Assembly (NCBI GenBank): GCA_029248265.1
Contig: JAQWJQ010000190.1
Span: forward strand, 1-40,659
Reading direction: 5' to 3'
From: Planctomycetota bacterium
GTDB taxonomy: Bacteria; Planctomycetota; UBA1135; GCA-002686595
Length of the DNA: 40,659 nucleotides
Shown here: in pieces, positions 10,620 to 31,905 of the stretch
How the letters are laid out: each line of letters starts with the position of its first letter
Numbering within the stretch: position 1 is the first letter of the stretch
Made by a program: the position numbers and the translations under genes
Notes under the pieces: generated by a model
Told to the model about the DNA's origin: nothing
Databases searched by the model: none
Seen by the model: only the letters and a program-made list of their open reading frames with translations

Positions 10620-12557
10620 ATGACGCTCATCGCCCTCGAGAACGGGACCAAGGGGTTCAATGACCGGACCCTCTTCGAGGGCATCAGCTTCGAGCTGGAC
10701 GAGGGCGAGCGCGTGGGGCTTGTGGGGCGCAACGGGTCCGGCAAGTCCTCGCTCTTGCGGATCCTGGCGGGGGTCGACGCGCCCGATGAAGGCGTGGTGA
10801 CCCTTCGCTCCGGCCGCCGCGTCGGCTTCCTCGAGCAGGAGCCGGAGCTCGACGGGACGCTCTCAGCCCGTGAGGTCGTGCGACAGGGGCTCGCCGGGCG
10901 CGAGGAGATCCTGACCGAGCTCGCCGCGGTCCACGAGCAGCTCGGGAGCGCGGAAGGCGAAGCCATGGAGAAGCTGCTGACTCGCCTCGAGCGGCTGGAG
11001 CAGCGCCTCGAGGACACCGGCGGGCACGACGTGGAGCATCGCATCGAGGAGGCCTTGACCTCCCTCGACATCCCGGACCCCGACGCCAAGTGCGGCCCGT
11101 TCTCGGGCGGCGAGAAGCGCCGGGTGGCGCTCGCGCGCCTCCTGGTCTCGCGACCCGACGTGCTCCTCCTCGACGAGCCCACCAACCACCTCGACGCCTT
11201 CGTCACCGACTGGCTCGAGGACTGGTTCCTCGAGACCCGCATCCCGCTGGTGCTCGTCACCCACGACCGCTACCTGCTCGAGCGTGTCTGCGACCGGATC
11301 GTCGAGCTCGACGCGTCGAAGCTATGGTCCTACCAAGGCGGCTATAGCGACTACCTCGAGCAACGCGCCGCTCGCCTCATCGCCGAGCAGCGCGCCGAGG
11401 CGGGTCGACTCGCGGTGCTCCGCCGAGAGACCGCCTGGATCCGCCGGGGCCCCCCAGCTCGGACCACCAAATCCAAGGCGCGCATCCAGCGCTATGACGA
11501 CCTCGTGGACGCCGCCCCCGAGCTCCGCCCCGAGGACCTCGAGTTCAGCCTTCCGCCGGGGCCGCGCCTCGGCGCTCGGGTCGTCCACCTCGAGGGCGTC
11601 AGCAAGAGATATGGCGAGCGCACGATTCTCTCGCCCTTCGACCTCGAGCTTGGTCCGGGCATGCGCCTCGGGGTGATCGGGCCCAACGGAGCCGGTAAGT
11701 CCACCTTCCTGCGGCTGCTCCTCGGCCAGGAGGCCCCGGATCAAGGGCGCCGCGAGATCGGCGAGACGGTCTCCTTCATGGGCGTCGACCAGGAGCGCAC
11801 CGAGTTGGACCCCACGGCCTCCGTCGCCGAGAACGTCGCGGGCCGCCAGGGCGTGGTCGCCGTCGGCGACCGCACCGTGCGCGTCGAGAGCTTCCTGGAC
11901 AAGTTCGGCTTCGACGCCCGCCGCCGGGACTCGCTCGTGAAGACCCTCTCTGGCGGGGAGCGTGCCCGCGTCCTGCTGGCCAAGCTCCTCCTCCAGGGCG
12001 GCAACGTCCTGGTGCTCGATGAGCCCACGAACGACCTTGACCTCACGACTCTCCGCGCCCTGGAGGAGTCCCTCGCCCTCTTCCCCGGGGCGGCCGTGGT
12101 CGTGAGCCACGACCGCTGGTTCCTCGACCGGGTGGCGACGCACTTGCTCTACCTCGACGGCAAGGGCGGCGTCCGGCTCCACCACGGCGGCCTGGCAGAG
12201 CTCTTGCCCCAGATCACGGCGGAGCGTGAGGCGGACCGCCTCGCCGGACAGCGGGCCCGCAAGGAGGCGAGCCAGAAGCCCGCCCAGCAGCCCGCCGAGG
12301 CCTCGGTGTCGGACACACCGACCCGCAAGCGGCTCACCCCCTGGCAGGAGAAGGAGCTGGTGGAAGTCGAGGCTGAAGTGGGCCGGCTCGAGGCGCAGCT
12401 CGCCGAGCTGGACCGGTCCCTCGGGAGCCCCGACCTCTACGCCCCTGGCGCCGATCCGGGGCGGCCCAAGGCGCTCACGGCTGAGCGGGAGACCGCCCAG
12501 GAGCGGCTTGAGAAAGTCTTCGCCCGTTGGGAGGAACTGGAAGACCTGCGGGGCTAG
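10620..12557 (+). CDS. uup: ABC-F family ATPase, Uup-like
   Basis: 645 residues from the ATG at 10620, chosen because MTLIALENGTKGF begins the first ABC domain directly. There are two ABC cassettes and no membrane domain. Cassette 1 has Walker A GRNGSGKS (36-43), signature SGGEKRRV (162-169) and Walker B VLLLDEPTNHLD (181-192). Cassette 2 has Walker A GPNGAGKS (354-361), signature LSGGERARV and VLVLDEPTNDLD. The linker TAWIRRGPPARTTKSKARIQ (271-290) and the C-terminal coiled coil (about 560-645) are typical of Uup. ABC-F proteins act on ribosomes or, for Uup, on branched DNA structures; I infer Uup type from the linker and tail. A downstream lipoprotein gene follows after 76 bases. Confidence 0.92.
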   Translation: MTLIALENGTKGFNDRTLFEGISFELDEGERVGLVGRNGSGKSSLLRILAGVDAPDEGVVTLRSGRRVGFLEQEPELDGTLSAREVVRQGLAGREEILTELAAVHEQLGSAEGEAMEKLLTRLERLEQRLEDTGGHDVEHRIEEALTSLDIPDPDAKCGPFSGGEKRRVALARLLVSRPDVLLLDEPTNHLDAFVTDWLEDWFLETRIPLVLVTHDRYLLERVCDRIVELDASKLWSYQGGYSDYLEQRAARLIAEQRAEAGRLAVLRRETAWIRRGPPARTTKSKARIQRYDDLVDAAPELRPEDLEFSLPPGPRLGARVVHLEGVSKRYGERTILSPFDLELGPGMRLGVIGPNGAGKSTFLRLLLGQEAPDQGRREIGETVSFMGVDQERTELDPTASVAENVAGRQGVVAVGDRTVRVESFLDKFGFDARRRDSLVKTLSGGERARVLLAKLLLQGGNVLVLDEPTNDLDLTTLRALEESLALFPGAAVVVSHDRWFLDRVATHLLYLDGKGGVRLHHGGLAELLPQITAEREADRLAGQRARKEASQKPAQQPAEASVSDTPTRKRLTPWQEKELVEVEAEVGRLEAQLAELDRSLGSPDLYAPGADPGRPKALTAERETAQERLEKVFARWEELEDLRG

Positions 12558-12633
12558 TCCTCTTGTTGCACAATGCGTCGCAGAGCCCCGGCCCTGGCCG
12601 CCTCTGCTCCACTCGTCGACACACCGCCACCCC

Positions 12634-14601
12634 ATGAGCATCGTGAACCGCGCCCTTCCCACTCGCCTCTCGCCGGCCCGCTCCTCCCTCCTCGGCACCA
12701 CCCTCCTCTGCGCGCTCGCGGCCAGCTGCTCGAGTGAAGAGACCCCCCCCGAGTCGTTCATCGTCCGCAACACCGAGCACGCGGCCGCCAGCGCGACGGA
12801 GCCCCTGCGAGCCGACAAGGACTGGATGGCCTACCGCCTCTCAGAGGCGAGCCAGGGCGCGGCGCCCGGCACGGACTTCAACGGAGACGGCGACACCAAC
12901 GACTCCATCGCGGTGCGCGAGAACACGAGGACCAGGAGCACCGAGGTCCTCAACGTGGCCGCGCTTGAGCTCGCGTTCGTGGACGAGACGCTCTTCATCC
13001 TTGTGGATGAGACGCAGGACGGCACCGATTGGAACGGGGACACGGACCTGAACGACCGCGTCCTCCTGTTCCACGCCGTCGGCACCCCGGACCCCGTCTT
13101 CTACGACGAGGTCCCGTCGGGCCTCAGCGGTGGGCTCGTCAGCGCCGCGGGCCGCCTCCTGTACCCCTCCGCGACGGCCCCCACGGCCTCGATGGAGTCC
13201 AACCTCTACCTGGCGGCGGTGGCCGCGGCCGGGGCGGCCCCCGCGGCTCCCGCGATGGTCCTCACGGGCACCGACCTGAACAACGACGGGATCTCCTATT
13301 CGGTGCAGAGCGAGAAGGCTGGCTTCGTCTTCCTCTTGGCTGACGAGACCGTTGACGGTGAGCTGAACGGAGATGGGGACGCGGTCGACAACAACATCCT
13401 CGCCGTGGTGGACGCTGGCGCCCTGACGCCGCAGATCGTGAACGTGGAGCTCGCCCTCGACGCCGCCACAAGCCCTGACGCCGTCCCAGTGGCAGGGGGA
13501 GGCGAGTGGCTCGCCGCGTTCCTCGTGGACGAGGCCAGCCAGAACGAGAACCTCAACGACCCCTCAAGGTTCTCCTCCAACTGGCAGCCCGCCAACTGCG
13601 CCGCCGCCCCGGACACCGATGAGGCCGACGCGGTCCTCCACTGGTTCCAACTCGGTGACCTGATCACAGGCACGCCCGCTGTGAACACCGGACTCGTCGG
13701 AGCGGACCAGGCCTACGCGATGATCGATCAGTTCGTCGGCGTGGTCTCGCCGGAGAACGAGGAGGGCAGCGGCGGGGGCTGCGACCTCAACGGAGACACG
13801 GACACCAACGACCTGATCTTCCGGTGGGTCGCCGCCGCGGACCCGCTCGCCCCCGTCTTGCCCGTGACCAGCAGCGCGCGCCTGCACGCTGTGCGGGACA
13901 ACCTCCCTGGCGGGTCCGGCGGCGTCGTCGCTCTCGAGGACACCTGGGCCATCGTCGTCGACGAGGTCGCCGACGGCAGGAATCACGACGGCGAGCCCAG
14001 CCTCGACCAGGACCTCGTGGCCGCCCACGTGCCGTCCGTCAGCGGGCAGTCCTGGAACTTCAACCACGGCTCGACCTTCACGACGCCCGTGGGCGTGACG
14101 TGGATCCAGTCGGACACCGAGGACGCGAGCCGCTTCTTCGCCGCGATCACCGAGGAGAGCCTCGAGGCAGGGCTCGGCGCAGGCTACAACGGCAACGGCG
14201 ACGGAGACTTCGACGACTCGATCTCGACCATCCCGACCGTCTCCTCAGGCAACCGGCTCACCTTCCCGGGCGTCGCCTACGCAGTGGCCTCGAACCGGCC
14301 CGGGCTGCGCGTCAAGCAGAACGTGGGGGTGCACCGGATCTCCGAGGCCGCTCAGGGCGGCTTGGACATCAACGGAGACGGGGACGCCACGGACTTCGTC
14401 CTCCAGCGCTTCAGCATCACTGGCGCCTTCGCCAGCACGTACTTCGCTACGGCGGACGACGCGCCCACACCGGCCAGCTACTTCCAGGTTGGCGCGGCCG
14501 AGTTCGGCGGCTTCCTGACCGACGAGTTCATGGCCGGGGGCGACCTCAACGGCGACGGCGACCTCGACGACTTGGTGGTTCGCTACTACCGCCTCCCCTG
14601 A
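12634..14601 (+). CDS. lipoprotein with about nine Ca-binding D-x-N-G-D-G-D loops
   Basis: 655 residues. The ATG at 12634 opens a lipoprotein-type signal peptide (LLGTTLLCALAASCSSEE, lipobox cysteine near residue 33; the -3 residue is Ala, a weaker lipobox). The mature protein is built from repeats: a beta-strand ending in (D/S)E, an aspartate-rich loop, then a hydrophobic strand. Loops begin near residues 81, 132, 214, 243, 384, 450, 518, 578 and 637. The best are DFNGDGDTND, DWNGDTDLND, DINGDGDATD and DLNGDGDLDD; the one at 450 is degenerate. Such loops bind Ca2+ in dockerins, thrombospondin type 3 repeats and EF-hand-like proteins. The C-terminal spacing of 59-68 residues suggests propeller-like or solenoid packing, which is inference. 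Surface-exposed lipid anchor likely. Confidence 0.85.
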   Translation: MSIVNRALPTRLSPARSSLLGTTLLCALAASCSSEETPPESFIVRNTEHAAASATEPLRADKDWMAYRLSEASQGAAPGTDFNGDGDTNDSIAVRENTRTRSTEVLNVAALELAFVDETLFILVDETQDGTDWNGDTDLNDRVLLFHAVGTPDPVFYDEVPSGLSGGLVSAAGRLLYPSATAPTASMESNLYLAAVAAAGAAPAAPAMVLTGTDLNNDGISYSVQSEKAGFVFLLADETVDGELNGDGDAVDNNILAVVDAGALTPQIVNVELALDAATSPDAVPVAGGGEWLAAFLVDEASQNENLNDPSRFSSNWQPANCAAAPDTDEADAVLHWFQLGDLITGTPAVNTGLVGADQAYAMIDQFVGVVSPENEEGSGGGCDLNGDTDTNDLIFRWVAAADPLAPVLPVTSSARLHAVRDNLPGGSGGVVALEDTWAIVVDEVADGRNHDGEPSLDQDLVAAHVPSVSGQSWNFNHGSTFTTPVGVTWIQSDTEDASRFFAAITEESLEAGLGAGYNGNGDGDFDDSISTIPTVSSGNRLTFPGVAYAVASNRPGLRVKQNVGVHRISEAAQGGLDINGDGDATDFVLQRFSITGAFASTYFATADDAPTPASYFQVGAAEFGGFLTDEFMAGGDLNGDGDLDDLVVRYYRLP

Positions 14602-14662
14602 CGAGAGGCCCTTCGAGAAGCCCCTGTCAGGGTCCGCCGGCTGGGCTCCCCGGTCTTGAACA

Positions 14663-14707
14663 TCGCTCCCCGTGAGAGGCAGGTTGCCCGCCACTCACGG
14701 AGAGCGA
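14663..14707. terminator. hairpin between convergent genes, probable bidirectional terminator
   Basis: Left arm 14663-14676 and right arm 14694-14707 pair over 13 bp with one C/A mismatch (core CCGTGAG/CTCACGG, outer GCTC/GAGC). The 17-base loop contains a further GGCA/TGCC pairing. It lies 62 bases after the stop of the Ca-loop lipoprotein and 20 bases beyond the stop of the convergent peroxiredoxin-like gene. Neither strand shows a U-tract, so it is a structural prediction rather than a classical intrinsic terminator. Confidence 0.6.
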
Positions 14708-14726
14708 CGCTCGCAGTCGCGTCACC

Positions 14727-15263
14727 TCAGAGGTCCCGAGCTGCCCGGGCGAGGCGGCCAAGGTCCGGCGTCGAGGCGGACGTGGTCGCGAGGTCGGAGT
14801 CCAACACCTGCCCACCCTTCACGAGGAAGGAGCCCGCCAGGACCCGCGGGTCTCCCTTGGGGAGCCCGACGCCGTGGCGGCGAGCCCGGAAGCCTGCGGC
14901 CCACGTCCTCGGCCCCACCAGCTGGGCCAGCGACCCTCGCTCCAGCCCGAAGGCGTCAAAGAGGGCTTTCTCGGGGTCGGAGACGGCACGCGCCTCCGGC
15001 CAGCGCTTCTCGAAGAACGCTGCCCCCTCCGCGGGGGTGCCCATGTGCACGACGAGCGCCGGCGGGAAGGCCGGATCGTCCGCGCGGGCGCGCAGGTTCT
15101 CGATGTCACGCCGGCAGAACGTTCAGCCCAGGTGCCGGACAAAGACCACGACCGTGGGGCCGTCGTCGAGGGCCATACGCAGGGTCGGGGCATCAGAGAG
15201 GGCCTCAGACCCCGCGATTCGGCGGTCGAGGACGGCCTCGGGGATCGAGAAGGGAGTCATCAT
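14727..15263 (-). CDS. peroxiredoxin-like (AhpC/TSA-type) selenoprotein, U-x-x-C
   Basis: 178 residues if the in-frame UGA at 15123-15125 (codon 47) is read as Sec. The ATG at 15263 is followed by a second ATG at 15260; either can start. Upstream of the UGA: TVVVFVRHLG. Downstream: TFCRRDIENLRARAD, then WPEARAVSDPEKALFDAFGL, QLVGPRTWAAG and VLAGSFLVKGGQV. These are hallmarks of the thioredoxin-fold peroxiredoxin-like family whose active site reads R-H-x-G-C-x-x-C-R. The UGA sits exactly at the first, peroxidatic Cys (U-T-F-C). A SECIS-like stem-loop follows immediately. The homology continuing on both sides argues against a pseudogene. Likely reduces peroxides or disulfides in the cytoplasm. 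Without recoding only a 46-residue fragment would be made. Confidence 0.85.
15096..15120 (-). promoter_or_regulatory. candidate bacterial SECIS element 1
   Basis: Starting 3 bases after the UGA, GTTCT pairs with AGAAC (15116-15120 with 15096-15100). After a two-base bulge CGG pairs with UCG (15111-15113 with 15101-15103, one G-U pair). The apical loop is CGUGACA (15104-15110). A G within the first two loop bases and a short distance from the UGA are features of bacterial SECIS elements that bind SelB. The distance (loop begins 13 bases after the UGA) is at the short end of the known range. Confidence 0.65.
15123..15125 (-). other. in-frame UGA read as selenocysteine
   Basis: Codon 47 of the peroxiredoxin-like gene. 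Context on the minus strand is CAC CTG GGC TGA ACG TTC TGC, giving H-L-G-U-T-F-C. Cysteine is expected here in the family (G-C-x-x-C-R). Confidence 0.82.
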
Positions 15264-15411
15264 GGTTCGTGCCAGCGCGCTTGGGTGCATGGGCCCCGCG
15301 CGGTGTCGCGCAGCAACCCACGGGGAATCCGGAGCAAGACAACGGCTCCGCCGCTCGAGGTTCGCCCGCCGGAGGGTTCAGGAGGCGGCGAGGCCTCACC
15401 CCGACTTCGAA

Positions 15412-16959
15412 TCAACGGTCGCGGTCCCCTCCCTCGCCTTCCCCCTCTTCTTCTCCACCGTCCCCACCGCGATCCCTGCGTCTCTCTCCCCGGTCCTCAC
15501 CGCGGCGGCCGCCGCCACGACCGAAGAGACGCTCACGGGGGATCTCATCCGAACCGGCCTCCTCCAGGGCCGTGCGGAGCGCCTCATAGGGCTTGCCTGC
15601 GAGAACGCTGAGGGCGGCCTCAGCAGCCGCCTTCAGGCCCGGCTCCTCCGCCTCTGCCGCGACCAAGCCATCGAGGAGCGGCTTCCACTCGGGCTGCCTA
15701 GAGATGCCCATGGCCACCACGGCGCCAAGCCTCTCCTGAAGCGTCACATCCTCCGCGTCGACCTTGGCGAGGTCCCCATGGAGCGCGGGCAGCGCCGCCG
15801 CCTTGAGTCGATTGGCCACGTCTTCATCCGCATCGAGCCAGCCGAGGGCGACCAGCGCGTTGGCGCGAATGAGCGGCTGCTTCCGATCGATGGAGGCCTT
15901 CAGCAGCGCCGAGCGCGCCTTCCGGTCGTCACGGGCCGCCGAGCCGAGGGCGCGCAGCACGTTCTTATGGCGCTCTGGGTCCGATGCGCTGCGCCGGAGG
16001 GCCTTCATGAGCACAGATACCGACTCCTGAGCGCCGAGCTGCTCGAGGGCCACGACGGCCTCCTGCTTGACCTCTTCCGCGCCGCTGTCAGCGAACTCCA
16101 CGCAGACCTCCCAGTAGCTCGCGGGTGACTCCTCACCGATCCAGCGCAGCAGTTGACCGCGTTCCCGGTCCGAGTTTCCGCCGCGCCCGCCGCCGCCTCT
16201 CCCGCCGCGACCGCCGCCGCGACCACCGCCGCCGCCGCCTGCGCGCAGGACCGCGAGGATGTACTCCCGCGCTTCCGGCTCATCCGACGTCGCGAGCCGA
16301 CGGATCATCTCCCGCTGCTCGCCGCCGTTGCCGCCCTTCTTCAGGGTGACAATGAGCTCCAACGCCTCTTCTCGGGTGACCGGCCCAGAGCCACCGCCCA
16401 GCTGGGGGACATCCCCCACGATGAGCCGGCGCGGCCGGCGTCCGGGGTGCTTGCGAGCGGAGGGCTCCACCCCCGCCAGCATCGCCACGGCCTCGTGAAA
16501 GCACCACTCCAGCTCGGAGACCGAGACCTCATAGGGGACCGACAGGAGCACGCTCCCATCCGGCGCACAGAACACGTGCTGCGGCGCGATCACCGCACCG
16601 GTCGCCGATGGCTTCAGGATCTCCTCCCGCACGGAGATGTCCACGAAGCGGTGCTGCTCGCAGGACTCACACCCGAACCGGGGGCACTTGCCGCTCTTTC
16701 GGTGGCGGTCCGCGGACGCGATCAGGTTCACCGTCCCCTCCGCCAGGTCCTTGATCTTGCGGTCCTTGTAGACCTTCTTCGCCATCTGGTCGTTCGCCCG
16801 CTCGCCGTCCATGTTGACCGCGATGAAGATCACCTGCTCTTCGGCTGCTGCGGCCTCGAGGGCGGCATCAAGTGACGGCGACCATTGGATATCAACGGCG
16901 CTGCCAGGGAGGACTGATGCGGCCACCGAGACCGCGAGGAGGGAGAGTGATCGGAGCAT
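15412..16959 (-). CDS. secreted thioredoxin-like and HEAT-repeat protein
   Basis: 515 residues from the ATG at 16959, which opens a signal peptide (MLRSLSLLAVSVAASVLPGSA). Residues 25-160 look like a thioredoxin-fold domain of the DUF255/Thioredoxin_7 kind (LDAALEAAAAEEQVIFIAVN). It has no classical CxxC at the usual place but carries a cluster C92-x4-C97-x2-C100-x2-H103, which could bind a metal. A Gly/Arg-rich stretch follows (about 239-261). Alpha-helical HEAT-like repeats come next (about 265-480; EVKQEAVVALEQLGAQESVS, PLIRANALVALGWLDADEDV). The tail is rich in Arg, Gly and Glu. Likely a periplasmic binding or scaffold protein, partner unknown. It may share a transcript with the peroxiredoxin-like gene 148 bases downstream. 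Confidence 0.8.
   Translation of the reverse strand: MLRSLSLLAVSVAASVLPGSAVDIQWSPSLDAALEAAAAEEQVIFIAVNMDGERANDQMAKKVYKDRKIKDLAEGTVNLIASADRHRKSGKCPRFGCESCEQHRFVDISVREEILKPSATGAVIAPQHVFCAPDGSVLLSVPYEVSVSELEWCFHEAVAMLAGVEPSARKHPGRRPRRLIVGDVPQLGGGSGPVTREEALELIVTLKKGGNGGEQREMIRRLATSDEPEAREYILAVLRAGGGGGGRGGGRGGRGGGGRGGNSDRERGQLLRWIGEESPASYWEVCVEFADSGAEEVKQEAVVALEQLGAQESVSVLMKALRRSASDPERHKNVLRALGSAARDDRKARSALLKASIDRKQPLIRANALVALGWLDADEDVANRLKAAALPALHGDLAKVDAEDVTLQERLGAVVAMGISRQPEWKPLLDGLVAAEAEEPGLKAAAEAALSVLAGKPYEALRTALEEAGSDEIPRERLFGRGGGRRGEDRGERRRDRGGDGGEEEGEGEGGDRDR
16178..16242 (-). repeat. Gly/Arg-coding low-complexity tract
   Basis: Imperfect GGC/GGT/CGC triplet tract inside the thioredoxin/HEAT gene, encoding about 22 residues of G(n)RG-type sequence. 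It probably forms a disordered linker between the two domains. Confidence 0.6.
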
Positions 16960-17109
16960 GGTTCTGGTGGTCGAGGCTGCAGAGGGCCCGTGGACGGGTG
17001 GACGCCTCAATGTGGATCTGAACCGGTGGGGCGCAACCACGTCACGCGCGAGGCGAAAGATCCAGCCAACGGTGTTGTATCGGTTGCGAAAGGGCCGGTG
17101 CGTGCCCCA

Positions 17110-18018
17110 TCAGAAGAGCCCCAGCTGCGCCCCCGGCGACCGGAACCCGGATCGAGCACGCCAGGGGCCGAGCACCGGGTGGCCCGCCTCGGCGAGCCTG
17201 CGGTCGAGGTGATCGGCGAGGTCGAGGGTCTGGGCCTCATCCTGCTGATGGAAGAAGAAGTACGCCTGCTCGAGCCCCGCCGCGGCCCACCGAGAGAGAC
17301 GCTCGGCCCAGCGGTCCAGACGTTCGAAGTCGGAGCGGTGCAGCGCATTCCCCACGAAGCGCACGAGCGTCTTGGCCGAGGACAGGCGCATGTGTGCGCA
17401 GTCCCTGCGCCCCGCCGTATCGGTGATGACCGCCGTCACCCCGAGGGACTCAAACATCTCAAAGAGCGCCGCGCTCGCACCCTCATCCCGGAACCAGCTC
17501 CGGTCACGGACCTCGACGGCGAGCGGCAGCTGGTCAGCCCACTCCTCGAGGAAGGCCGCCAGTGATCCCATGCGGTCCGCGCCGAAGAAGGGCGGGAGGG
17601 CGAACCACGAGAGCCCACGCCGCTCTCCGAGGGCCTCGCTGGCTTGGACGAAGGCGGCCATCTCGTCCTCCACTCCCTCGAGCATCCCGTCATGGGAGAC
17701 CGAGCGCGGGAGCTTGCAGCAGAAGAGAAAGCCCTCCGGGACGGCGCCGGCCCACCGCGAGAGGCGCTCCTCGCTGTAGCCGTAGAAGGTCGAGTTGAGC
17801 TCGTGGGCGGGGAGCGCGGCGCTGTGGGCTCGCAGCACCCCCGTCGGGCTCTCCCCCCCGAGCCGGGCCACGAGCCCGGGGTCGGACCAGCTGGGCAGGC
17901 CGAGGCGCAGGTCGCAGGGGGCGCCGCCCGCCTTGCTCAACACGGCGGCGCTCCTCGGCGCTTCAGCGGGCAGCGAGAAGTCGACCGAGTCGATCTCGGG
18001 GAGGCGACCGAATTCCAT
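17110..18018 (-). CDS. DUF72 (YecE-like) protein
   Basis: 302 residues, cytoplasmic. Residues 36-300 fit DUF72, a TIM-barrel-like family: DLRLGLPSWSDPG, then ELNSTFYGYSEERLSRWAGA, FLFCCKLPRSVSHDG, LPLAVEVRDRSWF, and AHMRLSSAK near the C-terminal half. The biochemical role of DUF72 is not established. The first 35 residues are a poorly conserved extension; a later start is possible but no better internal start is evident. It is separated from the divergent methyltransferase gene by 57 bases. Confidence 0.88.
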   Translation of the reverse strand: MEFGRLPEIDSVDFSLPAEAPRSAAVLSKAGGAPCDLRLGLPSWSDPGLVARLGGESPTGVLRAHSAALPAHELNSTFYGYSEERLSRWAGAVPEGFLFCCKLPRSVSHDGMLEGVEDEMAAFVQASEALGERRGLSWFALPPFFGADRMGSLAAFLEEWADQLPLAVEVRDRSWFRDEGASAALFEMFESLGVTAVITDTAGRRDCAHMRLSSAKTLVRFVGNALHRSDFERLDRWAERLSRWAAAGLEQAYFFFHQQDEAQTLDLADHLDRRLAEAGHPVLGPWRARSGFRSPGAQLGLF

Positions 18019-20470: not shown

Positions 20471-21535
20471 TCAGCGCCCGGTGTCGGGTTCAGGGCCCGC
20501 TCGCAGCCAGTCGGAGGCCCCGACGCCCTCCAGCCGGAAGCCGCGCGAGCCGCGGGTCAGCTTTCCGGTCACCAGCAGGTAGTTCTGCCTGAATTCGTCC
20601 TTGGTCCCGGGCAGGTCGAGGGCCTCAAGGGCCGCGCGCCCCGACGCGGGGACACCGATCCGGACGGCTCGCTTGCGATCTCCCGAACGCAGCAAGATGG
20701 TCCAGGAGCCGTCCTCCTCGTCAAAGAACCGGTCGACCGAGGCCAGGAGCGTCACCTCTCCACCGCCGGCCTCGACCGCCGCCTCGAGCCGGTCCGGGTC
20801 GTCACAGGCCAGGAATCGCTTCGGGCTGGTCGCCGCGCGGGCCCGGAAGTCGTCGATGGCCGTGGCCCGCGCCGTCCACCAGGCCATCAGCCGGGGATAG
20901 TCACGGCGCTTCCCGCCCTCGTTCGTCTTCGAATCCCAGATCCCGAGCTTCTCCGCCATGGCCTTGCGCTGGGCCTCGAGAAAGCGCTCGTGGTCCAGGC
21001 GACTATTGCCGTACTTGTTGAAGTACGGGCTGTGCCCCATGCGGACGAGGAGCAGGTTGAAGTCGATCCCCTCCTTGGTCACCACGTGACACAGGAGTCG
21101 GCCGTAGATATCGCGCGCCTCCTCGCCGCCCGGAAACCTCAGGCCGACCTTCGCCGGGCCCTCGTCGGGGCTCCGGGGCAAGAAGAAACCTTTGGCCCAG
21201 CCGGTAGACTGCTCGGCGAAGCGGGTCGAGGGCTTGGAGGCAGAGATGTCCTTGCCCCCCATGTACTTCTCCTCCGTGTCGACGGAGAGCAGCCGGAGCT
21301 TCTCGCGCTCGCCGTTGCGCTGAATGTAGATCGTGTCACCGTCCACCACGCGCTCGACGGTGAAGAGCTTCTCGGGCTTCTCGACCTGGCAATCCCGGAG
21401 AGCGTCCGAGACGCTCGCCCGGGGCGGCGGCCAGCTCGATTTCTGCTGGGACGCGGGAGTGGCGGCCTGGAGCGGCGCGGCGAGGAGGAGCAGGGTGAGG
21501 GCGGTTCTCGTGAGCATGGATCTTGGGCGGGTCAT
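20471..21535 (-). CDS. secreted staphylococcal-nuclease-like (SNase) protein
   Basis: 354 residues; the ATG at 21517 (MLTRTALTLLLLAAPLQA) is an equally good start for the signal peptide. The SNase OB-fold covers about 57-201. Residues matching the nuclease active site are all present: D65 in VVDGDT, R81 in KLRLLSVD, D86 and E89 in SVDTEEK, and R146 in IYGRLL. An insertion (about 91-135) interrupts the barrel. The remaining 150 residues look like a second small beta domain (TSPKRFLACDDPDRLEAAVE, then LLVTGKLTRGSRGFRLEGVG). Likely an extracellular or periplasmic Ca-dependent nuclease. It follows the ThuA gene after 83 bases on the same strand. Confidence 0.87.
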   Translation of the reverse strand: MTRPRSMLTRTALTLLLLAAPLQAATPASQQKSSWPPPRASVSDALRDCQVEKPEKLFTVERVVDGDTIYIQRNGEREKLRLLSVDTEEKYMGGKDISASKPSTRFAEQSTGWAKGFFLPRSPDEGPAKVGLRFPGGEEARDIYGRLLCHVVTKEGIDFNLLLVRMGHSPYFNKYGNSRLDHERFLEAQRKAMAEKLGIWDSKTNEGGKRRDYPRLMAWWTARATAIDDFRARAATSPKRFLACDDPDRLEAAVEAGGGEVTLLASVDRFFDEEDGSWTILLRSGDRKRAVRIGVPASGRAALEALDLPGTKDEFRQNYLLVTGKLTRGSRGFRLEGVGASDWLRAGPEPDTGR

Positions 21536-21618: not shown

Positions 21619-22662
21619 TCAGCGACTCTCGAGCGCATGCGCCGCGGGCCGGAGGCCGCGGCGGAATTGACCGAAGCCAAACCTCAAGGGCTCGAAGGTC
21701 CCCACGAGCGCCACCTCGGCCCCGCCCTCGGGGACCTCACGTCCGACGAGGTGGAGCGCAGCGTTGACGATCATCCGCCTCGACCCAGGCGCGACGAGAT
21801 CCGTCGCAGCCCCAAGCGTGGTGGTGAAGGCCCGACCGGGCTTGCCGCCCGGGAGCTCGTAGGTCCGGAACCATGCGAGGGGCATCAGGGGGTCGTTTCG
21901 AGCCCCCTCTACCACCGAGTCGCCCGGGCGCATGCCCATGAGCGGGTCCCCGTCCTCGCCGGGGCCGGCGCGGTCGAGGCACTGGCCTAGCATCACCACC
22001 TCGGTCCCCTCGAGCATGGGCACCCGGACCCGGTACACATCGCTGGGGCCCCACACGTCGCCGTCCCCGAGGCCGCGCAGCGCAGGGTGCTTCGCCTGCC
22101 CGGGAGCGAGGATGCCGCGCGTGCTTTGGCTGCCGTGGGCACCGTGGTGCGCCACCCACTTCTCCCCGAGGACCAGCCGGCCGAAGCCGCCCTTCCACTC
22201 CTCTTTGGGACCGTTGTATCCGTTGGCATAATGGGCCCAGGGCCCATCGTTCGCGTTACGAAAACCGTGCGTGGCTGTCCGCATGCCGAGCACCGGCTTC
22301 CCCGCCTTGAGGTAGGCGTCGATGTGCTGCATCTGCTCGTCAGGCAGGTCTCGGAAGCGCGTGGCGATGACCATCAGGTCGGCCGTCTCGAGCGCCTCGA
22401 GCCCCGGGATATTGTCGAGGCAGGTGGGGACAATCTCGCCGCTCGCGGGGTCGACGGGGAACAGGACCGTGCAGCGGACCCCGTGGTGCACCGAGAGGAT
22501 CTTGCCGAGCTGCGGGAGGGCCTCCTCGCTGCGGTACTCCTCGTCGCCAGCGATGAGCACCACGTGGGGTGCGTCCTCCCCCCTGCCGGGGTAGCTGACC
22601 CAGAGGTCGGGGCCGGGGGCCGAGAGCCCCCCCATCACCATGAGCGTCACGAGTTCGATCAT
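21619..22662 (-). CDS. ThuA-like domain protein
   Basis: 347 residues from the ATG at 22662, which overlaps the TGA of the giant TPR gene (TGATG). The N-terminus (MIELVTLMVMGGLSAPGPDL) could be a weak signal peptide. The ThuA fold (class I glutamine-amidotransferase-like) is evident: HVVLIAGDEEYRSEEALPQL, ADLMVIATRFRDLPDEQMQH, YLKAGKPVLGMRTATHGFR, GEKWVAHHGAHG, and PLAWFRTYELPGGKPGRAFT near the end. The family was named for trehalose utilisation, but members are widespread as secreted putative sugar-metabolism enzymes in planctomycetes. The coupling to a TPR protein suggests a shared complex or expression level. Confidence 0.9.
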   Translation of the reverse strand: MIELVTLMVMGGLSAPGPDLWVSYPGRGEDAPHVVLIAGDEEYRSEEALPQLGKILSVHHGVRCTVLFPVDPASGEIVPTCLDNIPGLEALETADLMVIATRFRDLPDEQMQHIDAYLKAGKPVLGMRTATHGFRNANDGPWAHYANGYNGPKEEWKGGFGRLVLGEKWVAHHGAHGSQSTRGILAPGQAKHPALRGLGDGDVWGPSDVYRVRVPMLEGTEVVMLGQCLDRAGPGEDGDPLMGMRPGDSVVEGARNDPLMPLAWFRTYELPGGKPGRAFTTTLGAATDLVAPGSRRMIVNAALHLVGREVPEGGAEVALVGTFEPLRFGFGQFRRGLRPAAHALESR

Positions 22663-25600
22663 CACTTCCTCTTCGCGGCCTCGGCCTTCAGGGTCTTGAG
22701 CGTCTCGGCGGCGCGCGCCGCCTTCTCGGCAGCCTCCGTCCAACGGTCAACAGCGTCCTCGTCTCCGGCCAGGGTGGCGGCCCGGATCAGGACCTCGGTA
22801 AGCGCCTCCGGGCGTGAGAAGGCCGCCGTCGGCGCCGCGAGGACGAGGGCGGCCTCCGGCCCCTCTCGCTCCAGCACGCCCTCGACCACGCCCGCCACCC
22901 TCGCGGTCAGGAGCTCTCCATCCGTGAGCATCCGGACCTCGATGCGATCCGCAGCCTCCGCGCCGCCCAGCTCACGGAGAGCGTCCACCACCCAGAGCCG
23001 CGCACGGGCATGGATGTTCTCGAGGTCCGCGAGCCGGAGCGCGAGCGCCATGGCCTCGTCCCCCAGCCCCACCTCTCCCATGCGCACCGCGCACAAGGCG
23101 AGGGCCTCCACGGTGAAGGCGTCCTGCAGGCGCCCGGCCTCCAGCCAGGCCAGGTGGCTCTCCGCGAAGCGCCCGAACCACCGGCCAGGGTCCTCGAGCC
23201 CCTCACCGGCCTCAGGCAAGACCGCCTCCAGGACGTCCTGAGGGATCACGGCGGGCTCCCCAGGCTCGGCCCTCCAGAACATGTCCGGGTTGCCGACCTC
23301 GGCCGCACTGAAGCGGGCGGTCCCGACCTCCAGCGCCCGGAGCGCGCGGTCCTCGTCCCCGCAGGCGAGGAAGAGGGGCGCGAGCTCCACGGCCACCGCG
23401 CGCTGGAGGCCCTTGGAGAGGTCCAGCGCATCCACGGCGATCGGGCCCAGCCGCTGGAGCGCCTCGGCGGGTCCGACCAGCTCCTGCCAGGTCTTCACCG
23501 CCAGGGTCTGGGTGCGCTCCATCTCCCAGGGACGCTCCCCCGACACGCTCTGCAGGAGCGCGGCGATCGGGGCGACGCGCTCCTCGCCCACGAGGTTCTC
23601 CTTCACGTCCTCGATGAGCTCAGGCAACGGGACGCTCGAGATCACGTAGGCGCCATCGTCGTTGAAGGGGCTATCACTGGCGATCCCGATCAAGGCGCAC
23701 CACTCGTACATGCGCAGCGCCATCTCGCGGTCACCGCTGCGGAGCAGCGTCCGCGCGAGGCGCATGACCTGCGCCGCGTCCATGGGAGGCATGGTGCTCA
23801 CGAGCCCCACCAGCGCCGCCGACGCCTCGCTGGTGATCAGCTCCGGGTTGAGGTCCAGCAGCGTCAGGAGCTGGATCTGCGCGAGCCGTCCGCCGGAGCG
23901 GCTCACCTCGGCCAGGAGCCGCTCGAGCGTCGCCTCAGAGCCGGCCACGCGGACCTCCGCCTGCAGCATGCCCCGGGTGAGCTGCTGGATCCGGTCCAGC
24001 TCGGCGGGCTGAATCGATCGCAGGTAGCGCTGCTGCTCCGCCACGATCTTGGGATAGGCCGCGAGCTTCTCATAGGCATCGGGCGCCGGCGACCGCTCGG
24101 GGGCCTCGGGGGCCCGGAAGGCCACGAGGCCCCCACGACGACGGGCCTCGGCCCCGGGATCATCACCCTTTGGAGCGGACTCTCCCGGCCAGCGCAGGCT
24201 CCCGAGCGGGGACCGGCGATAGAAGAGGAAGGACGACCTGCTCGCGGCGGGCTGCCCCACGGGAAACTCGCGCCACAGCCGACGGAAGATGCGGGCCGCG
24301 TCCTCCGTCTCCCCCGCGCTCAGCGCCTCACGAACCTCGCGGAACGTCCTCGGGAGCCCCTCCTTCTTGGGCTTGTCGTCGGCGTTGAAGGTGACACCTC
24401 CGACGGTGAGGGACAGGGTGCCCGGGGGGAGAACGAAGCCAGCGGAGCCGGGCGCCGCCTCGTCGCCCAGGTCCTCGAGCATTCGCTGCGCCTCGAGGGC
24501 GATCTCGGGGGCCGCGAGCCGCTCCCAGGCACGCACCGCCCGCCTCAGCAGCCTCTTCTTCTCATCGTCGTCCTCCGCCACGGAGAGGCAGCGGACCAGC
24601 GTCTGCGCCGCGGCGAGCTCTCGACCGAGCTTCATTTGAGCGTCACGGATCAGGTCGAGCCGCTGCCCCTCCGTCTCCTCGTCCGCCTCGAGCCCTTCGA
24701 GCAGCGCCAGCGCCTCGGCCGGCCGCTCCCAGGTGAAGTAGAGCTGCGCACGGGCGAAGTCCAGCGGCGTCGCGGTTGGCGACGCCGGAGCCACCTCCGC
24801 GAGGGCGGCCATGAAGGCGTCCCTCGCCGGCCCATCAAAGGCCGCTGCGAGCTGCTCGCAGGCCTGGCGCCGCTGGTAGTCGTCCTCTGTGTCGGCGGAG
24901 AGCGCCACGAACGCCTCCGCGCCCTCATCCACCAGCGCCTCCGGCCCCTCCAGCGCGCACCGATGGATCACAATCGCGGCGTCGAGGACCTCCGCCCGAG
25001 CGCCCACGGACGACCGGATCTCACGGCAGACGTCGAGCACCAGCTGGTGGCTGTGGGGCACGTCGAGGAGCCGGGACACGTAGTACTCCAGGAGATCCGC
25101 GCCGTCCTCCAGCGCTCCCGGGAGGGAGTCCCTGACGAAGTCCGCCATCTCCTCAGGGAGGTCCTCAGGCGCCTCGGCGATCATCCCGAGCAGGAACCTC
25201 GCCCGCCCCTGAGCCTCAAGCTTCGACCAGATCGAGCGCAGGGAGGAGGAGCGGTCCTCCTCGGGCAGCAGGAGCAGGACCGGAACCAACCCGAAGGCGT
25301 AGGCCTCTCCGAAGCCGTCCACGAGCGTCTGCACCTGCTCGGCCGACACCGCGGCCTCGCCGAAGCGCTGCGCCAGCTTCGGCAGGACCCGGACCAAGCG
25401 AGAGTTCCTCTCGGGCTCTGCGACGATCAAACCGACCACGTAGCGCGCGAGGGCGAGCCCGGTCTCCTCGCCCAGACCGGGGACCAAGGCATCGATCAGC
25501 TCCTCGACCTCGTAGGGGTTCGGCGAGCTGGCGAGGGAGAGCCGCAGCCAATCGCGGGCGACGCGGAGCGCCAGCTCCTCATCATCGGCGCTCCTCGCCG

Positions 25601-28600
25601 CCGCGAAGAGCACCGCCATGCCCTGGAGCTCGTCGTCCGCGAGCCGGCCCACGTTGGCCCGCTGCACAATGGCGCGGACTCGCTCGTCGTCGCCGACCGC
25701 GAACGCGGGCAGCGCCGCAGCGACCGCCTCATCAAAGGAGATGGGCCCGGAGGCGCCATCCGCCTCCGACGCTCCGCCGCCGAGTCGCGCGCGCCATCGG
25801 CTCGCGCCGCTGTAGTCCTCTGGCAAGCTGGCCAGGAGCCCCGCGGCCTGGGGAATCAGGCCCCAACGGACGCGCGACACCATGGCGTCGTCCAGCAACC
25901 GATCGTCCCCGGGGAAGGCCGCGAGCAGCGCCCGGTCCAGAGCCTGCGCGGCCTCCACGCGGCCGGTCGCGAAGCTGACGCGCCGCACGATCTCAGCGCG
26001 GCTCCCGAGGCGCGGGTGCTGCGCGATGCGCCGATCACTCGCCTCGACCCCCTCGCCGCCGCGGTCTGCGTCGGCCGCCGCGAAGGCGCGCGGGAGCTCC
26101 CGCTCCACGGCCCCGCCCTGCTCGCCGAGGAAGCCACCCAGTTGAGCCTCGGTCATGGTCGCGAGCATGCCCTGCAGGACGCGCTCACCGAACTGGTCCA
26201 GCTCGTCCACGTTGCGCGGCATGAAGCGCTGGAGCTTGTCCTCCTCTTCCTCGCGCTTGTTCTCCAGCAGCAGGCGTCGCCCGAGCAGGATCTCATGGGC
26301 GCGGCGGTAGAGGTCGAGGGCGGCGGCGTCGTCTCCGAGCGCTTCTCGCAGTTCCCCCACCTTGGTCAATAGGGGGATGTCCGACGGGCTGGCCGCGAGC
26401 ACCGCCTGGTAGCGCTCCAGGGCGCGCTCGATGTAGCCCGCCTTCTCGAAGCGCTCCGCCGCGTTCTTCTGGTACATCTCCCCATCAGGGAACTCTCGGG
26501 TCAGGTCGAAGGTCCGCGCGGCGGATCGCTCGTCCCCCGCCTCGAGGAAGGCGTCGCCGAGGTCCAGGAAGACCTCCGGCGGGACCATCTCACCCAGCCC
26601 GACCAGGCGCCGACCGAAGGCCAGGAGCTGCCCCTCGTCCCCCTCGCGCCCCTTGACGTTGAAGCTTGCACGGGCAGGCTTCGAGAGCTCCATGAGCTCC
26701 CGCAGCACCGAGGCCCGGCGCGGTCCGGCGGAGGCGAGCAGGCTCTGGAGCGCCGTGACCTGGCCGGCGTCGTCGCCGGTCTCCTCGGCGAGGTCCGCGA
26801 GGAGCTGATAGAGGTACGCAGCGTCCTCACGGCCGGCGAGGCGCTCGAGGGTGATCCGGCGCGCCCACTGCACCATCTCCGGCCGGGGCGGCGCCTCCAC
26901 GAGCATGTTGAGCAGTCCGTCGATCGCGATGGTGAAGACGTCGTCCTTGGGCGCGGTTTCCGCCAGGAACTGGAACATCCCCACCGCGCGATCTGCCTGC
27001 TTGACCTGCTTCATCAGGCCCGCCATCAACAGGTACGAGTCGATGCGCTCGGGGTGCGCCACCAACCCGCGGCGGTACGCGTCGATGGCCTCTTCCCGCA
27101 TCCCGGAGAGGGAGAGCACCCCCGCCTCGAACTCCGCCGAGGTGTCGTCGCCACCGGGGAGCTCCTGCAGCCGCATGAGCGTCGTGCGGGCCTCGTCGGG
27201 CCGGCCACGCTCGAGCTGACTCATGGCGAGTTGACGGTAGTAGTCGGGCCGGCCATCCGGGTCGAGTTCGATCAGGCGGCCGACCGCCTCCTCGTAGTTG
27301 AAGAAGTCGTTGCAGGCGAGGTAGACCCGCGCCTTCTCCGACAGCGCCTCCAATTCGGATCCGCCCTTCAGCTTGAGGAACTCGTCGATGATCTCCGCCG
27401 CCGACACCGCGTCGCCCACCTTGGTGTAGAGGCGCACCAGGAGGCCGCTGTCTCGATCGGTGGCCTCACCGCGCACGAGCTTACGCTCGATGTCGATGGC
27501 GATGTCCGCGAGCACGCCGAGCCGGGCGGCCACGGTCATCATGCGGTCCTCCACGAAGCGGCGCCGCGAGAGGGACTTCACCCGCAGCCAAAGCTCGCGC
27601 CACAGCTCAAGCGCCTGCTCCTCCCGGCCGACCTCCGAGTACAGCCAGGCCAGCCGCATCTCCAGGTCCTCGCCAGCGCGGCCCTCCCCGCGCGCGGCCC
27701 GCACGCCCTCGAGGGTGCGGACTGCGCCCTCCAGTTCGCCGATGCGCTCGTAACCATCGGAGAGGGGCATACGCGCGGGTGAACCGGCGGGCGCCAGCTC
27801 ATCCAGACGATCCAGGCTCATCCGGGCGACGTCGATCCGCCCCCGCTCGAGGCTGAGTTCAAAGAGGAAGAGCACCGCAGTCTCGCGGAGCTCGGCCCCG
27901 TCGACGACCTGCTCCGCAGCGCGGATCGCGAGGTCGTCGAGCCCGAGGCTCCTGAGCATCTCGGCGGCCTCGAGGACCGCGGAGGCGTCGAGGGCACCAG
28001 CAGGGTTCTCGGAGAACCACGACTCCCAGACCTCGATGGCCGCCGCGCGGTCTCCGTTCTCGAGGTAATAACGGCAGAGGCCCTGCCGCCAGAGCAGCTC
28101 CCCGGGCTCGCTGGCGATCCACTCGCCATAGACGGCGAGCATGTCCTCGACGCGGTCCGCCTCGCGGTACATCTCGAGCAGCCGGACCCGGTCCGCGCGG
28201 CTGAAGCTCGCCGCCGAGTCCCCCTGGGTCATGGCGATGGCCGCGTCGGTCTCGCCGGTCTCCCGGAGCAGCTCGATCCACATGCGGCGCGCCTCGGGCG
28301 GGAGCCCGGCGCGCTCGGCGTCAAAGCGCTGGAGGAGCGCCGGCAAGGAGCCGTCGCCCCGGTGCGCCTCGGCGAGCAGTGTCAGCCCGTAGCGGCGCTC
28401 GCGCGCGACGGTGGACAGGTGCACACCGCGCCAGGCGGCGTCCTGGGCGCGGGCCCAGTCCTCGGCCCCGAGCGACCACTCGGCGACCCGTAGCTCTCCG
28501 TTCGCCGCCGCCTTGCGCGAACGCTTCACCACATCGGTCGGCGCGCCGTCGGGCGCCAGGGGCTGCACCTGATAGAGGGCGGCGGCCTCGCCGGGGCGCC

Positions 28601-29405
28601 CCAGGAGCGCGAGCACAATGGCGCACCGGTTCCGCAGCTCGGGCGTGACGTCGGGTTCGCTGGCGAAGCGGGCCAGGGCCTCCTTCTCGTCCTCGCCGCC
28701 GGTCTCCATGGACATCAACGCCATGCGCAGCCGCAGCCGCGTGCGCTGCTCGGCGTCGTCGAGGTCGGGCAGAAGGGCCGCGTACGCCTCGAGGGCGTCG
28801 GCCGCCTCCCCACGCGCATCGAGGAGCTGCGCGTACGCCAGCCGGCTGGCGAGGTCGCCGTCGTTCCTTGCCAGCCGCTTGAACTCCCGGGCCGCGTCCT
28901 TCAGGTCCCCGTGTCGCCAGGCGACCCAGCCCAGGATCCGACGCGTGGTCTCGGCGTCGCCCTTGCCCCGGGAGAGCTGACGCAGTTCGTCCTTGAGGAG
29001 GTCGACGCCGCCGGGGTGGGCCGCCGCGGCGCTGAAGAGCGCGCTGGCCTCGGACCGAGCGCCCGCCGCGTCGAGCCCCTGCGCTTCGAGGCCGGCGAGC
29101 CGCTCCAGGAGCTCAGGCGGGAGCTCCTGGATCACCGGCTCCACCGCGGGGGCCACCGCCCCCTCCTGGGCCGCTCCCTGGTTGATCACGATGACGCCCC
29201 CGCTCCTCGCCGCCGCTGTGGCGCGCTTGCGCACGCTGAACCCCTGGCCGGGCGACACCCGGATGATCTTTGTGGACTGGATCGACGGCGTGGACTGGAT
29301 CGACGGCGTGGACTGGACCGACGGGGCCGCCGACGACATGGAGCCGGTACAGACGAGGGCGAGCGCGAGGGTGAAGCCGTTCATGGCGCGGAGGGCGTCA
29401 GTCAT
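22662..29405 (-). CDS. giant secreted TPR-solenoid protein (2247 residues)
   Basis: The signal peptide is MTDALRAMNGFTLALALVCTGSMSSA; the ATG at 29384 (MNGF) is an alternative start, but ATGA overlap with the upstream gene favours 29405. A short PSxQST repeat (about 28-45) follows, then a Gln/Val-rich linker. From about residue 110 almost the whole chain is TPR-like helices, with A-rich units such as GWVAWRHGDLKDAAREFKRL and LAYAQLLDARGEAADALEAY. Around 1590-1700 the pattern breaks into a linker of probable disorder (LPPGTLSLTVGGVTFNADDK) before helices resume to the C-terminus. No catalytic motif was seen. It is the largest gene and probably the scaffold of the MoxR/VWA operon. It overlaps both neighbours by 1-4 bases. 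Confidence 0.88.
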   Translation of the reverse strand: MTDALRAMNGFTLALALVCTGSMSSAAPSVQSTPSIQSTPSIQSTKIIRVSPGQGFSVRKRATAAARSGGVIVINQGAAQEGAVAPAVEPVIQELPPELLERLAGLEAQGLDAAGARSEASALFSAAAAHPGGVDLLKDELRQLSRGKGDAETTRRILGWVAWRHGDLKDAAREFKRLARNDGDLASRLAYAQLLDARGEAADALEAYAALLPDLDDAEQRTRLRLRMALMSMETGGEDEKEALARFASEPDVTPELRNRCAIVLALLGRPGEAAALYQVQPLAPDGAPTDVVKRSRKAAANGELRVAEWSLGAEDWARAQDAAWRGVHLSTVARERRYGLTLLAEAHRGDGSLPALLQRFDAERAGLPPEARRMWIELLRETGETDAAIAMTQGDSAASFSRADRVRLLEMYREADRVEDMLAVYGEWIASEPGELLWRQGLCRYYLENGDRAAAIEVWESWFSENPAGALDASAVLEAAEMLRSLGLDDLAIRAAEQVVDGAELRETAVLFLFELSLERGRIDVARMSLDRLDELAPAGSPARMPLSDGYERIGELEGAVRTLEGVRAARGEGRAGEDLEMRLAWLYSEVGREEQALELWRELWLRVKSLSRRRFVEDRMMTVAARLGVLADIAIDIERKLVRGEATDRDSGLLVRLYTKVGDAVSAAEIIDEFLKLKGGSELEALSEKARVYLACNDFFNYEEAVGRLIELDPDGRPDYYRQLAMSQLERGRPDEARTTLMRLQELPGGDDTSAEFEAGVLSLSGMREEAIDAYRRGLVAHPERIDSYLLMAGLMKQVKQADRAVGMFQFLAETAPKDDVFTIAIDGLLNMLVEAPPRPEMVQWARRITLERLAGREDAAYLYQLLADLAEETGDDAGQVTALQSLLASAGPRRASVLRELMELSKPARASFNVKGREGDEGQLLAFGRRLVGLGEMVPPEVFLDLGDAFLEAGDERSAARTFDLTREFPDGEMYQKNAAERFEKAGYIERALERYQAVLAASPSDIPLLTKVGELREALGDDAAALDLYRRAHEILLGRRLLLENKREEEEDKLQRFMPRNVDELDQFGERVLQGMLATMTEAQLGGFLGEQGGAVERELPRAFAAADADRGGEGVEASDRRIAQHPRLGSRAEIVRRVSFATGRVEAAQALDRALLAAFPGDDRLLDDAMVSRVRWGLIPQAAGLLASLPEDYSGASRWRARLGGGASEADGASGPISFDEAVAAALPAFAVGDDERVRAIVQRANVGRLADDELQGMAVLFAAARSADDEELALRVARDWLRLSLASSPNPYEVEELIDALVPGLGEETGLALARYVVGLIVAEPERNSRLVRVLPKLAQRFGEAAVSAEQVQTLVDGFGEAYAFGLVPVLLLLPEEDRSSSLRSIWSKLEAQGRARFLLGMIAEAPEDLPEEMADFVRDSLPGALEDGADLLEYYVSRLLDVPHSHQLVLDVCREIRSSVGARAEVLDAAIVIHRCALEGPEALVDEGAEAFVALSADTEDDYQRRQACEQLAAAFDGPARDAFMAALAEVAPASPTATPLDFARAQLYFTWERPAEALALLEGLEADEETEGQRLDLIRDAQMKLGRELAAAQTLVRCLSVAEDDDEKKRLLRRAVRAWERLAAPEIALEAQRMLEDLGDEAAPGSAGFVLPPGTLSLTVGGVTFNADDKPKKEGLPRTFREVREALSAGETEDAARIFRRLWREFPVGQPAASRSSFLFYRRSPLGSLRWPGESAPKGDDPGAEARRRGGLVAFRAPEAPERSPAPDAYEKLAAYPKIVAEQQRYLRSIQPAELDRIQQLTRGMLQAEVRVAGSEATLERLLAEVSRSGGRLAQIQLLTLLDLNPELITSEASAALVGLVSTMPPMDAAQVMRLARTLLRSGDREMALRMYEWCALIGIASDSPFNDDGAYVISSVPLPELIEDVKENLVGEERVAPIAALLQSVSGERPWEMERTQTLAVKTWQELVGPAEALQRLGPIAVDALDLSKGLQRAVAVELAPLFLACGDEDRALRALEVGTARFSAAEVGNPDMFWRAEPGEPAVIPQDVLEAVLPEAGEGLEDPGRWFGRFAESHLAWLEAGRLQDAFTVEALALCAVRMGEVGLGDEAMALALRLADLENIHARARLWVVDALRELGGAEAADRIEVRMLTDGELLTARVAGVVEGVLEREGPEAALVLAAPTAAFSRPEALTEVLIRAATLAGDEDAVDRWTEAAEKAARAAETLKTLKAEAAKRK
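29272..29325 (-). repeat. three tandem 18-base repeats at the start of the giant TPR gene
   Basis: Unit GTGGACTGGATCGACGGC on the plus strand (29272-29289, 29290-29307, 29308-29325), the last copy with two changes. Each copy encodes six residues of the form P-S-(V/I)-Q-S-T just after the signal peptide. It is probably a slippage-generated linker. Confidence 0.85.
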
Positions 29406-31900: not shown

Positions 31901-31905
31901 GACGG

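Follow-up and report, generated by a model that had tools for sequence, protein, structure and literature searches.

The window analysed here is a stretch of 40,659 nucleotides from a Planctomycetota bacterium. On its minus strand, positions 14727..15263 hold a gene that very probably encodes a selenoprotein, a SelL-related redox protein of the AhpC-TSA_2 (PRXL2-like) type with 178 amino acids and selenocysteine (Sec) as residue 47; the assignment draws on the frame, the homologues and the codon constraint. The frame claimed by an initial annotation was recovered in full: it runs from the ATG at 15263 to the terminal TGA at 14729-14727, and its sole internal stop is the TGA of codon 47 (15125-15123). 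Translation with this UGA read through gives V-V-F-V-R-H-L-G-U-T-F-C-R-R, and the UGA does occupy, as had been stated, the first position of U-T-F-C (G-U-T-F-C). We read the in-frame UGA (15123..15125, minus strand) as Sec on account of its column, which is TGA or Cys in homologues. The TGC codon of Cys50 (15114..15116, minus strand) presumably supplies the resolving Cys of U-x-x-C, the residue at +3 being mostly Cys in the family. A further in-frame ATG is present upstream, at 15290; the alignment of close homologues begins at the second Met of the frame starting at ATG 15263. The window is GC-rich and its ORF list contains 128 ORFs of 100 aa or more, so that an open frame alone is weak evidence; the evidence for the gene is its conservation, not the openness of its frame. 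Gene callers that treat UGA as a stop would truncate this gene or skip it.

Upstream of the gene lies a HEAT-repeat protein identified by Pfam (15412..17040, minus strand), and downstream a convergent gene that matches nothing in Pfam (12226..14601, plus strand). Both neighbours also adjoin the gene in five other genomes (G002, G003, G004, G007 and G008), and neither has a redox-family Pfam match. Elsewhere in the window, the minus strand codes for a DUF72 protein (17110-18018) and a staphylococcal-nuclease homologue (20471-21535), as well as for a run of large overlapping frames (22662-29405, 29402-31993 and 31906-33588) that includes a 2247-aa protein with a TPR match, one protein that matches von Willebrand A domains and another whose VWA_2 match falls narrowly below the cut-off.

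The part of the gene that follows the UGA is under coding constraint. For the four nearest relatives, the dN/dS ratios 3' of the UGA are 0.12, 0.17, 0.23 and 0.21, and for four further ones 0.25, 0.53, 0.34 and 0.43; 5' of the UGA the ratios range from 0.33 to 0.45 (computable for seven of the eight relatives). Differences from the copy in genome G008 fall at the three codon positions in the proportion 8/9/45 over 129 codons. Inspection for disabling changes after the UGA, which the initial annotation had named as a possible refutation, revealed none: there is no frameshift and dN/dS against relatives is low. Synonymous sites of five close genomes are invariant just after the UGA (at +1..+13 none of 12 informative codons varies, compared with 57 of 108 in the remainder, p 2.5e-4; across the six stretch lengths tested, p ranged from 2.5e-4 to 7.3e-3). 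The longest invariant synonymous run, 17 informative columns ending at codon +49, is located elsewhere, and the synonymous conservation is consequently not specific to a SECIS element.

Family searches place the protein close to, but formally outside, two curated models. Against NF040769 (SelL-related redox protein) it scores 102.1 bits (E 2.5e-29, residues 28-167), below the curated cut-off of 120, and against PF13911 (AhpC-TSA_2) 26.6 bits, 0.4 under the gathering cut-off of 27. By these scores it appears to be a relative of NF040769 outside the formal boundary of that model. All 45 aligned homologues match both NF040769 and PF13911 at E <= 0.001; PF00578 is also matched by 20 of the 45 and PF08534 by nine, and the PF00578 score of the window protein (18.5 bits) is under the cut-off of 26. 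As the two best curated models just miss the read-through protein, Sec proteins of this kind are probably under-counted.

The earlier description of the protein as "peroxiredoxin-like" holds for its AhpC-TSA_2/PRXL2-like kinship and fails for the active site. The accessible text of PMC13188914 gives the peroxiredoxin active site as PxxxTxxC/U and lists U-x-x-T for GPx-like proteins. The PxxxTxxC/U motif was not found in the window protein (F-V-R-H-L-G-U-T-F-C), where the residue three before U47 is His and that three before C50 is U47 itself; the Sec opens a thioredoxin-type CxxC instead. A profile built from the 45 homologues finds prostamide/prostaglandin F synthase at E 3.4e-12 (PDB 9us9, residues 14-170 of 198), with the Sec column lying opposite the first Cys of FGCVVC, a CxxC motif. 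A PDB search with the window protein alone reached only E 0.3 and gave no match to this synthase. At +3 after the motif column, Cys is found in 60 of 71 Sec rows and in 46 of 48 Cys rows. The other 11 Sec rows have Thr (six, U-x-x-T) or Ala, Phe or Ser (five, one of them UxxS), which indicates that some members can do without the second Cys. The six U-x-x-T members are L040, L043, L045, L048, L053 and L059, and their motif resembles that of glutathione peroxidase. An AlphaFold model built from three sequences is poor (mean pLDDT 54.8); in this low-confidence model U47 would follow a strand (37-42) and precede a helix (48-60), which is the order of the thioredoxin fold. Foldseek with the same model returned three matches at E <= 0.001, with TM of about 0.5, and the best 50 of 884 matches are mostly peroxiredoxins or thiol peroxidases. 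Because the model is poor, these predicted resemblances deserve little weight.

Homologues were collected from an order set of 101 genomes, this genome included, and a phylum set of 392 genomes. Within the order set, 44 genomes, this one among them, contain the 18-nt target of the planctomycete probe PLA46, in keeping with a probable place in the Planctomycetota; the relatives of families f2-f4 and f6-f8 have no exact copy of the target, and in one relative (G019, L157) it was seen to fall within a 16S gene. The order set yielded 46 matches in 42 genomes, with TGA at the codon in 39 matches (38 genomes), Cys in six, and one short match (L068) that lacks the motif. Each of the 39 TGA codons directly follows R-H-x-G. 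Each of the eight same-genus genomes searched has a copy with UGA at this codon (44-80% identity), and G004 possesses the UGA form together with a Cys paralogue. The alignment of homologues suggested by the initial annotation thus showed this column to be Cys or UGA wherever an examined match retains the motif.

In the phylum set, at least 131 of the 392 genomes have a match at E <= 0.001. Down to about E 3e-14, codons were read in 88 matches, which belong to 79 genomes; weaker matches, many of which span only about profile positions 10-105, are outside the codon counts, and the G070 match above the E limit had already been counted as L067. The 88 codons comprise 43 TGA, 43 Cys and two others (Lys and Thr, both in matches without the motif). 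They divide according to the presence of selA: 41 TGA, 12 Cys and the two others are in selA-positive genomes, two TGA and 28 Cys in genomes where selA was not found, and three Cys in genomes with ambiguous selA. The status of selA was assigned by hand, "not found" denoting no match among those listed or one far under the cut-off (20 of the 116 genomes without a selA match being shown). The association of TGA with selA gives a Fisher p of 2.4e-10 per match and 1.9e-11 per genome (38/8 vs 2/28) with kinship ignored, and as the genomes are related these values overstate independence. The two TGA genomes without a selA match, G302 (67% complete) and G347 (91% complete), may owe this to gaps in their assemblies.

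A tree of 119 rows (71 Sec and 48 Cys) contains at least nine changes of state between Sec and Cys; it was computed by a quick method, with 48 of 116 inner branches open, and omits 14 of the 88 phylum matches (10 from genomes in the order set, two short and two without the motif). Such close alternation of UGA and Cys offers natural pairs in which the benefit of selenium to a PRXL2-type redox enzyme could be tested. Some arrangements seen in individual genomes may be recorded here. In G098 a Cys-form member (L051; C19:50473-52271) is convergent to selA, with 11 bp between the ends of the two matches; contig C269 of G268 carries both the UGA form and selA, about 5.6 kb from each other; and on G116:C87 two Cys-form paralogues (L081 and L099) are adjacent in a selA-positive genome.

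The genome itself carries the full set of genes for Sec insertion that the initial annotation had proposed to look for: selA, selB, selC (tRNA-Sec) and selD were all found. The selA, selB and selD matches score 455.5, 327.3 and 326.6 bits, respectively, all above cut-off; selA and selD share one contig, and no stop interrupts the frames of selA and selB. The tRNA-Sec match (70.5 bits) is the sole one above cut-off in this genome, the other 11 of 12 falling below, and ARAGORN reports it as tRNA-SeC with anticodon tca. Among 14 control genomes, the cut-off was passed by the tRNA-Sec model in five, by selA in one, and by selB and selD in two each; the tRNA-Sec model, passing in 5/14 controls vs 1/14 for selA, is therefore the less specific. 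The selD gene of this genome is also a UGA gene (L018, G000:C60; UGA at locus positions 1531-1533, residue 44 of the translated stretch). Its UGA is followed by a clear bSECIS-like hairpin of 7-9 bp with a GUG loop 33 nt on, which is a positive control from within the genome.

The 54 nt after the UGA of the window gene (15069..15122, minus strand) are the presumed SECIS region, a designation based on enrichment at the family level. A bacterial SECIS (bSECIS) has its loop 16-37 nt after the UGA, with a loop length of 3-14 nt, a G in the first two bases of the loop and a stem of at least 4 bp. This rule was applied to the minimum free energy (MFE) fold of the 54 nt 3' of the codon. Among Sec rows, which are related to one another, 50 of 71 have a bSECIS-like hairpin vs 30.3 (sd 3.9) expected from synonymous shuffles; among Cys rows the count is 13 of 48, against 12.8 (sd 2.7) expected. 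This supports a selected hairpin in the Sec members as a group. In the window gene, the hairpin predicted after the Sec codon pairs GGCGUG-A-CA with UGCGCGCC and has a dominant loop UCGAGAACC located 19 nt after the UGA. That loop has no G in its first two bases and so misses the bSECIS loop rule; when 2000 structures of the 54 nt were sampled, 9% had a qualifying hairpin. The SECIS search advocated in the initial annotation found an enrichment in the Sec members as a group and, in the window gene itself, a candidate hairpin whose loop departs from the rule. The stem-loop with a CGUGACA loop noted there is weak and not the likely SECIS: the 25 nt that form it do have it as their MFE structure, yet its energy is just -2.3 kcal/mol, and 12 nt separate the UGA from the loop. 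The CGUGACA loop is also outside the eight commonest apical loops in the 2000 structures of the 54 nt.

Other approaches to the SECIS gave the following results. Rfam on 14700-15300, with E up to 10, produced three matches and no SECIS, and RNAalifold on the 39 UGA regions found no consensus pairs. Over 48 nt, the mean z of folding energy relative to synonymous shuffles is -0.50 for the 39 TGA sequences and 0.15 for the six Cys sequences; the window gene has -2.0 (8/300), and its four nearest relatives -0.43, 0.02, 0.64 and 0.93. Over 54 nt, the means are -0.45 (71 Sec rows) and -0.21 (48 Cys rows), with -1.26 for the window gene. Folding energy alone thus provides no firm SECIS signal for the window gene. 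A subgroup formed by L065, L066 and L067, with the motif F-H-R-H-L-G-U-L-P-C, has a strong hairpin with an AGUU loop 25 nt after the UGA, which is among the best single SECIS candidates seen (structures were sampled for L066 only).

From the gene, the codon, the Cys/Sec exchange, the machinery and the coding constraint, all computed directly, we infer that the UGA is recoded, and we conclude with high confidence that the locus is a genuine selenoprotein gene for a thioredoxin-fold AhpC-TSA_2/SelL-related protein with the active site U47-T-F-C50. The recoding proposed in the initial annotation is in this way supported by the presence of the sel genes, by the Cys/UGA column and by the lack of any disabling change after the UGA. 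It is very improbable that we are dealing with a pseudogene or an assembly error, that is, with a Cys gene that a TGC-to-TGA change or a miscall has interrupted and that is not translated beyond codon 47. The weak SECIS candidate of the window gene would fit such an origin, but TGA is present at the same codon in 38 further order-set matches from 37 other genomes and in many more across the phylum, the sequence downstream of the UGA is under purifying selection and the frame has no other stop. Still less probable is the insertion of another amino acid, through a lineage-wide change of code or near-cognate readthrough. Readthrough of UGA is known in general; against it, TGA terminates all nine window frames checked (the selenoprotein frame included) as well as selA and selB, the selD terminator being TAG, so that a general reassignment of UGA is very unlikely in a genome where TGA is the usual stop. 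Moreover, Cys is the only alternative at the column where the motif is kept, and the TGA copies track selA. Least probable of all, to the point of being negligible, is that the true gene is one of the overlapping plus-strand frames (14656-16128, 14672-15589 or 14874-15611) and the selenoprotein frame its shadow. These frames are open for 245-490 aa, yet substitutions relative to G008 are most frequent at the third codon positions of the minus-strand frame, along this stretch frame 14656-16128 shows lower conservation (73% vs 80% in the G008 copy), and it is the minus-strand frame, the one with which the family libraries were searched, that matches known families.

A different question is the chemistry of a real selenoprotein at this locus. 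The protein could be a peroxidase of the GPx/Prx type rather than a disulfide reductase, with Cys50 playing a modulatory part only. The Sec rows with Thr (6/71) or with Ala, Phe or Ser (five more) at +3 speak for this, as do the peroxiredoxins and thiol peroxidases that predominate among the best 50 of 884 fold matches of the low-confidence model; the retention of U-x-x-C in 60 of 71 Sec rows and the lack of PxxxTxxC speak against it. We regard such a peroxidase as a serious but distinctly less than evenly probable alternative. The selenoprotein would most likely function as a thiol-dependent disulfide or peroxide reductase. SelB and Sec-tRNA would decode the UGA of codon 47 as Sec, giving the 178-residue protein; the selenolate of Sec47 would attack an oxidized substrate, possibly a disulfide or a peroxide/endoperoxide; Cys50 would resolve this intermediate, a selenenyl-sulfide being formed; and thioredoxin or another thiol system of the cell might then re-reduce the enzyme.

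Several known systems can be compared with this protein, which belongs, with its UxxC motif, to a Sec/Cys family of an already known type. It resembles the NF040769 SelL-related redox proteins, a model matched by 45 of 45 members, and differs in that its own score is under the cut-off of 120. Prostamide/prostaglandin F synthase is a Cys enzyme acting on prostaglandin endoperoxides, and we take its entries PDB 9us9 and 9usa to be PRXL2B. Homology to 9us9 extends over most of the length and the CxxC motifs are aligned, with Cys in the synthase and Sec here. SelL proper has the motif UxxU with two Sec, whereas the window protein has U-T-F-C with one. Both are Prx-like selenoproteins, and SelL is described, in the part of PMC2398784 consulted, as occurring in prokaryotes and eukaryotes. 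Prx-like UxxC selenoproteins in general appear in the accessible parts of PMC2398784, PMC1088965 and PMC1794560, and those of PMC4807772 report selenoprotein genes in two planctomycetes. No literature was found under the name "SelL-related redox protein". In searches for selenoproteins with AhpC-TSA_2, PF13911 or PRXL2, the Pfam name was found, in the text accessible, only in PMC9312934; NF040769 and PF13911 are absent from the main text of PMC13188914, as far as it was available.

With slightly less than even confidence, and within the accessible parts of the sources, we suggest that a large Sec-using AhpC-TSA_2/PRXL2-like subfamily (UxxC, with UxxT, UxxS, UxxA and UxxF branches) extends through the phylum with repeated Cys swaps, has no row of its own in a 119-family compilation of 2026 and includes a window member just missed by curated cut-offs; its members lacking the second Cys may act in a glutathione peroxidase-like manner on a PRXL2 scaffold. 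UxxC members of this family may already be in print, perhaps under broader Prx-like rows, since the portion of PMC13188914 seen lists a Prx-like thiol:disulfide oxidoreductase (PF00578, UxxC/UxxU) and a Redoxin family protein (PF08534, UxxC). By description these are likewise Prx-like UxxC selenoproteins; in contrast to them, PF13911 is matched by all 45 members here, and the window protein does not reach the PF00578 cut-off. From the excerpts available, the eukaryotic (algal) AhpC_b of Thalassiosira oceanica (PMC7539508), likened by description, shares the AhpC/TSA domain and UxxC with the bacterial protein, and its prokaryotic homologues are given in Cys form. A published counterpart with the same Pfam domain is the AhpC/TSA family selenoprotein of pfam13911 (AhpC-TSA_2) in the available text of PMC9312934, which we take to be the protein behind the cd02970 AhpC/TSA row with UxxS in PMC13188914. 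There too Sec is first in the motif; as far as these texts go, both literature rows give UxxS alone, whereas the window protein and 60 of 71 Sec rows are UxxC.
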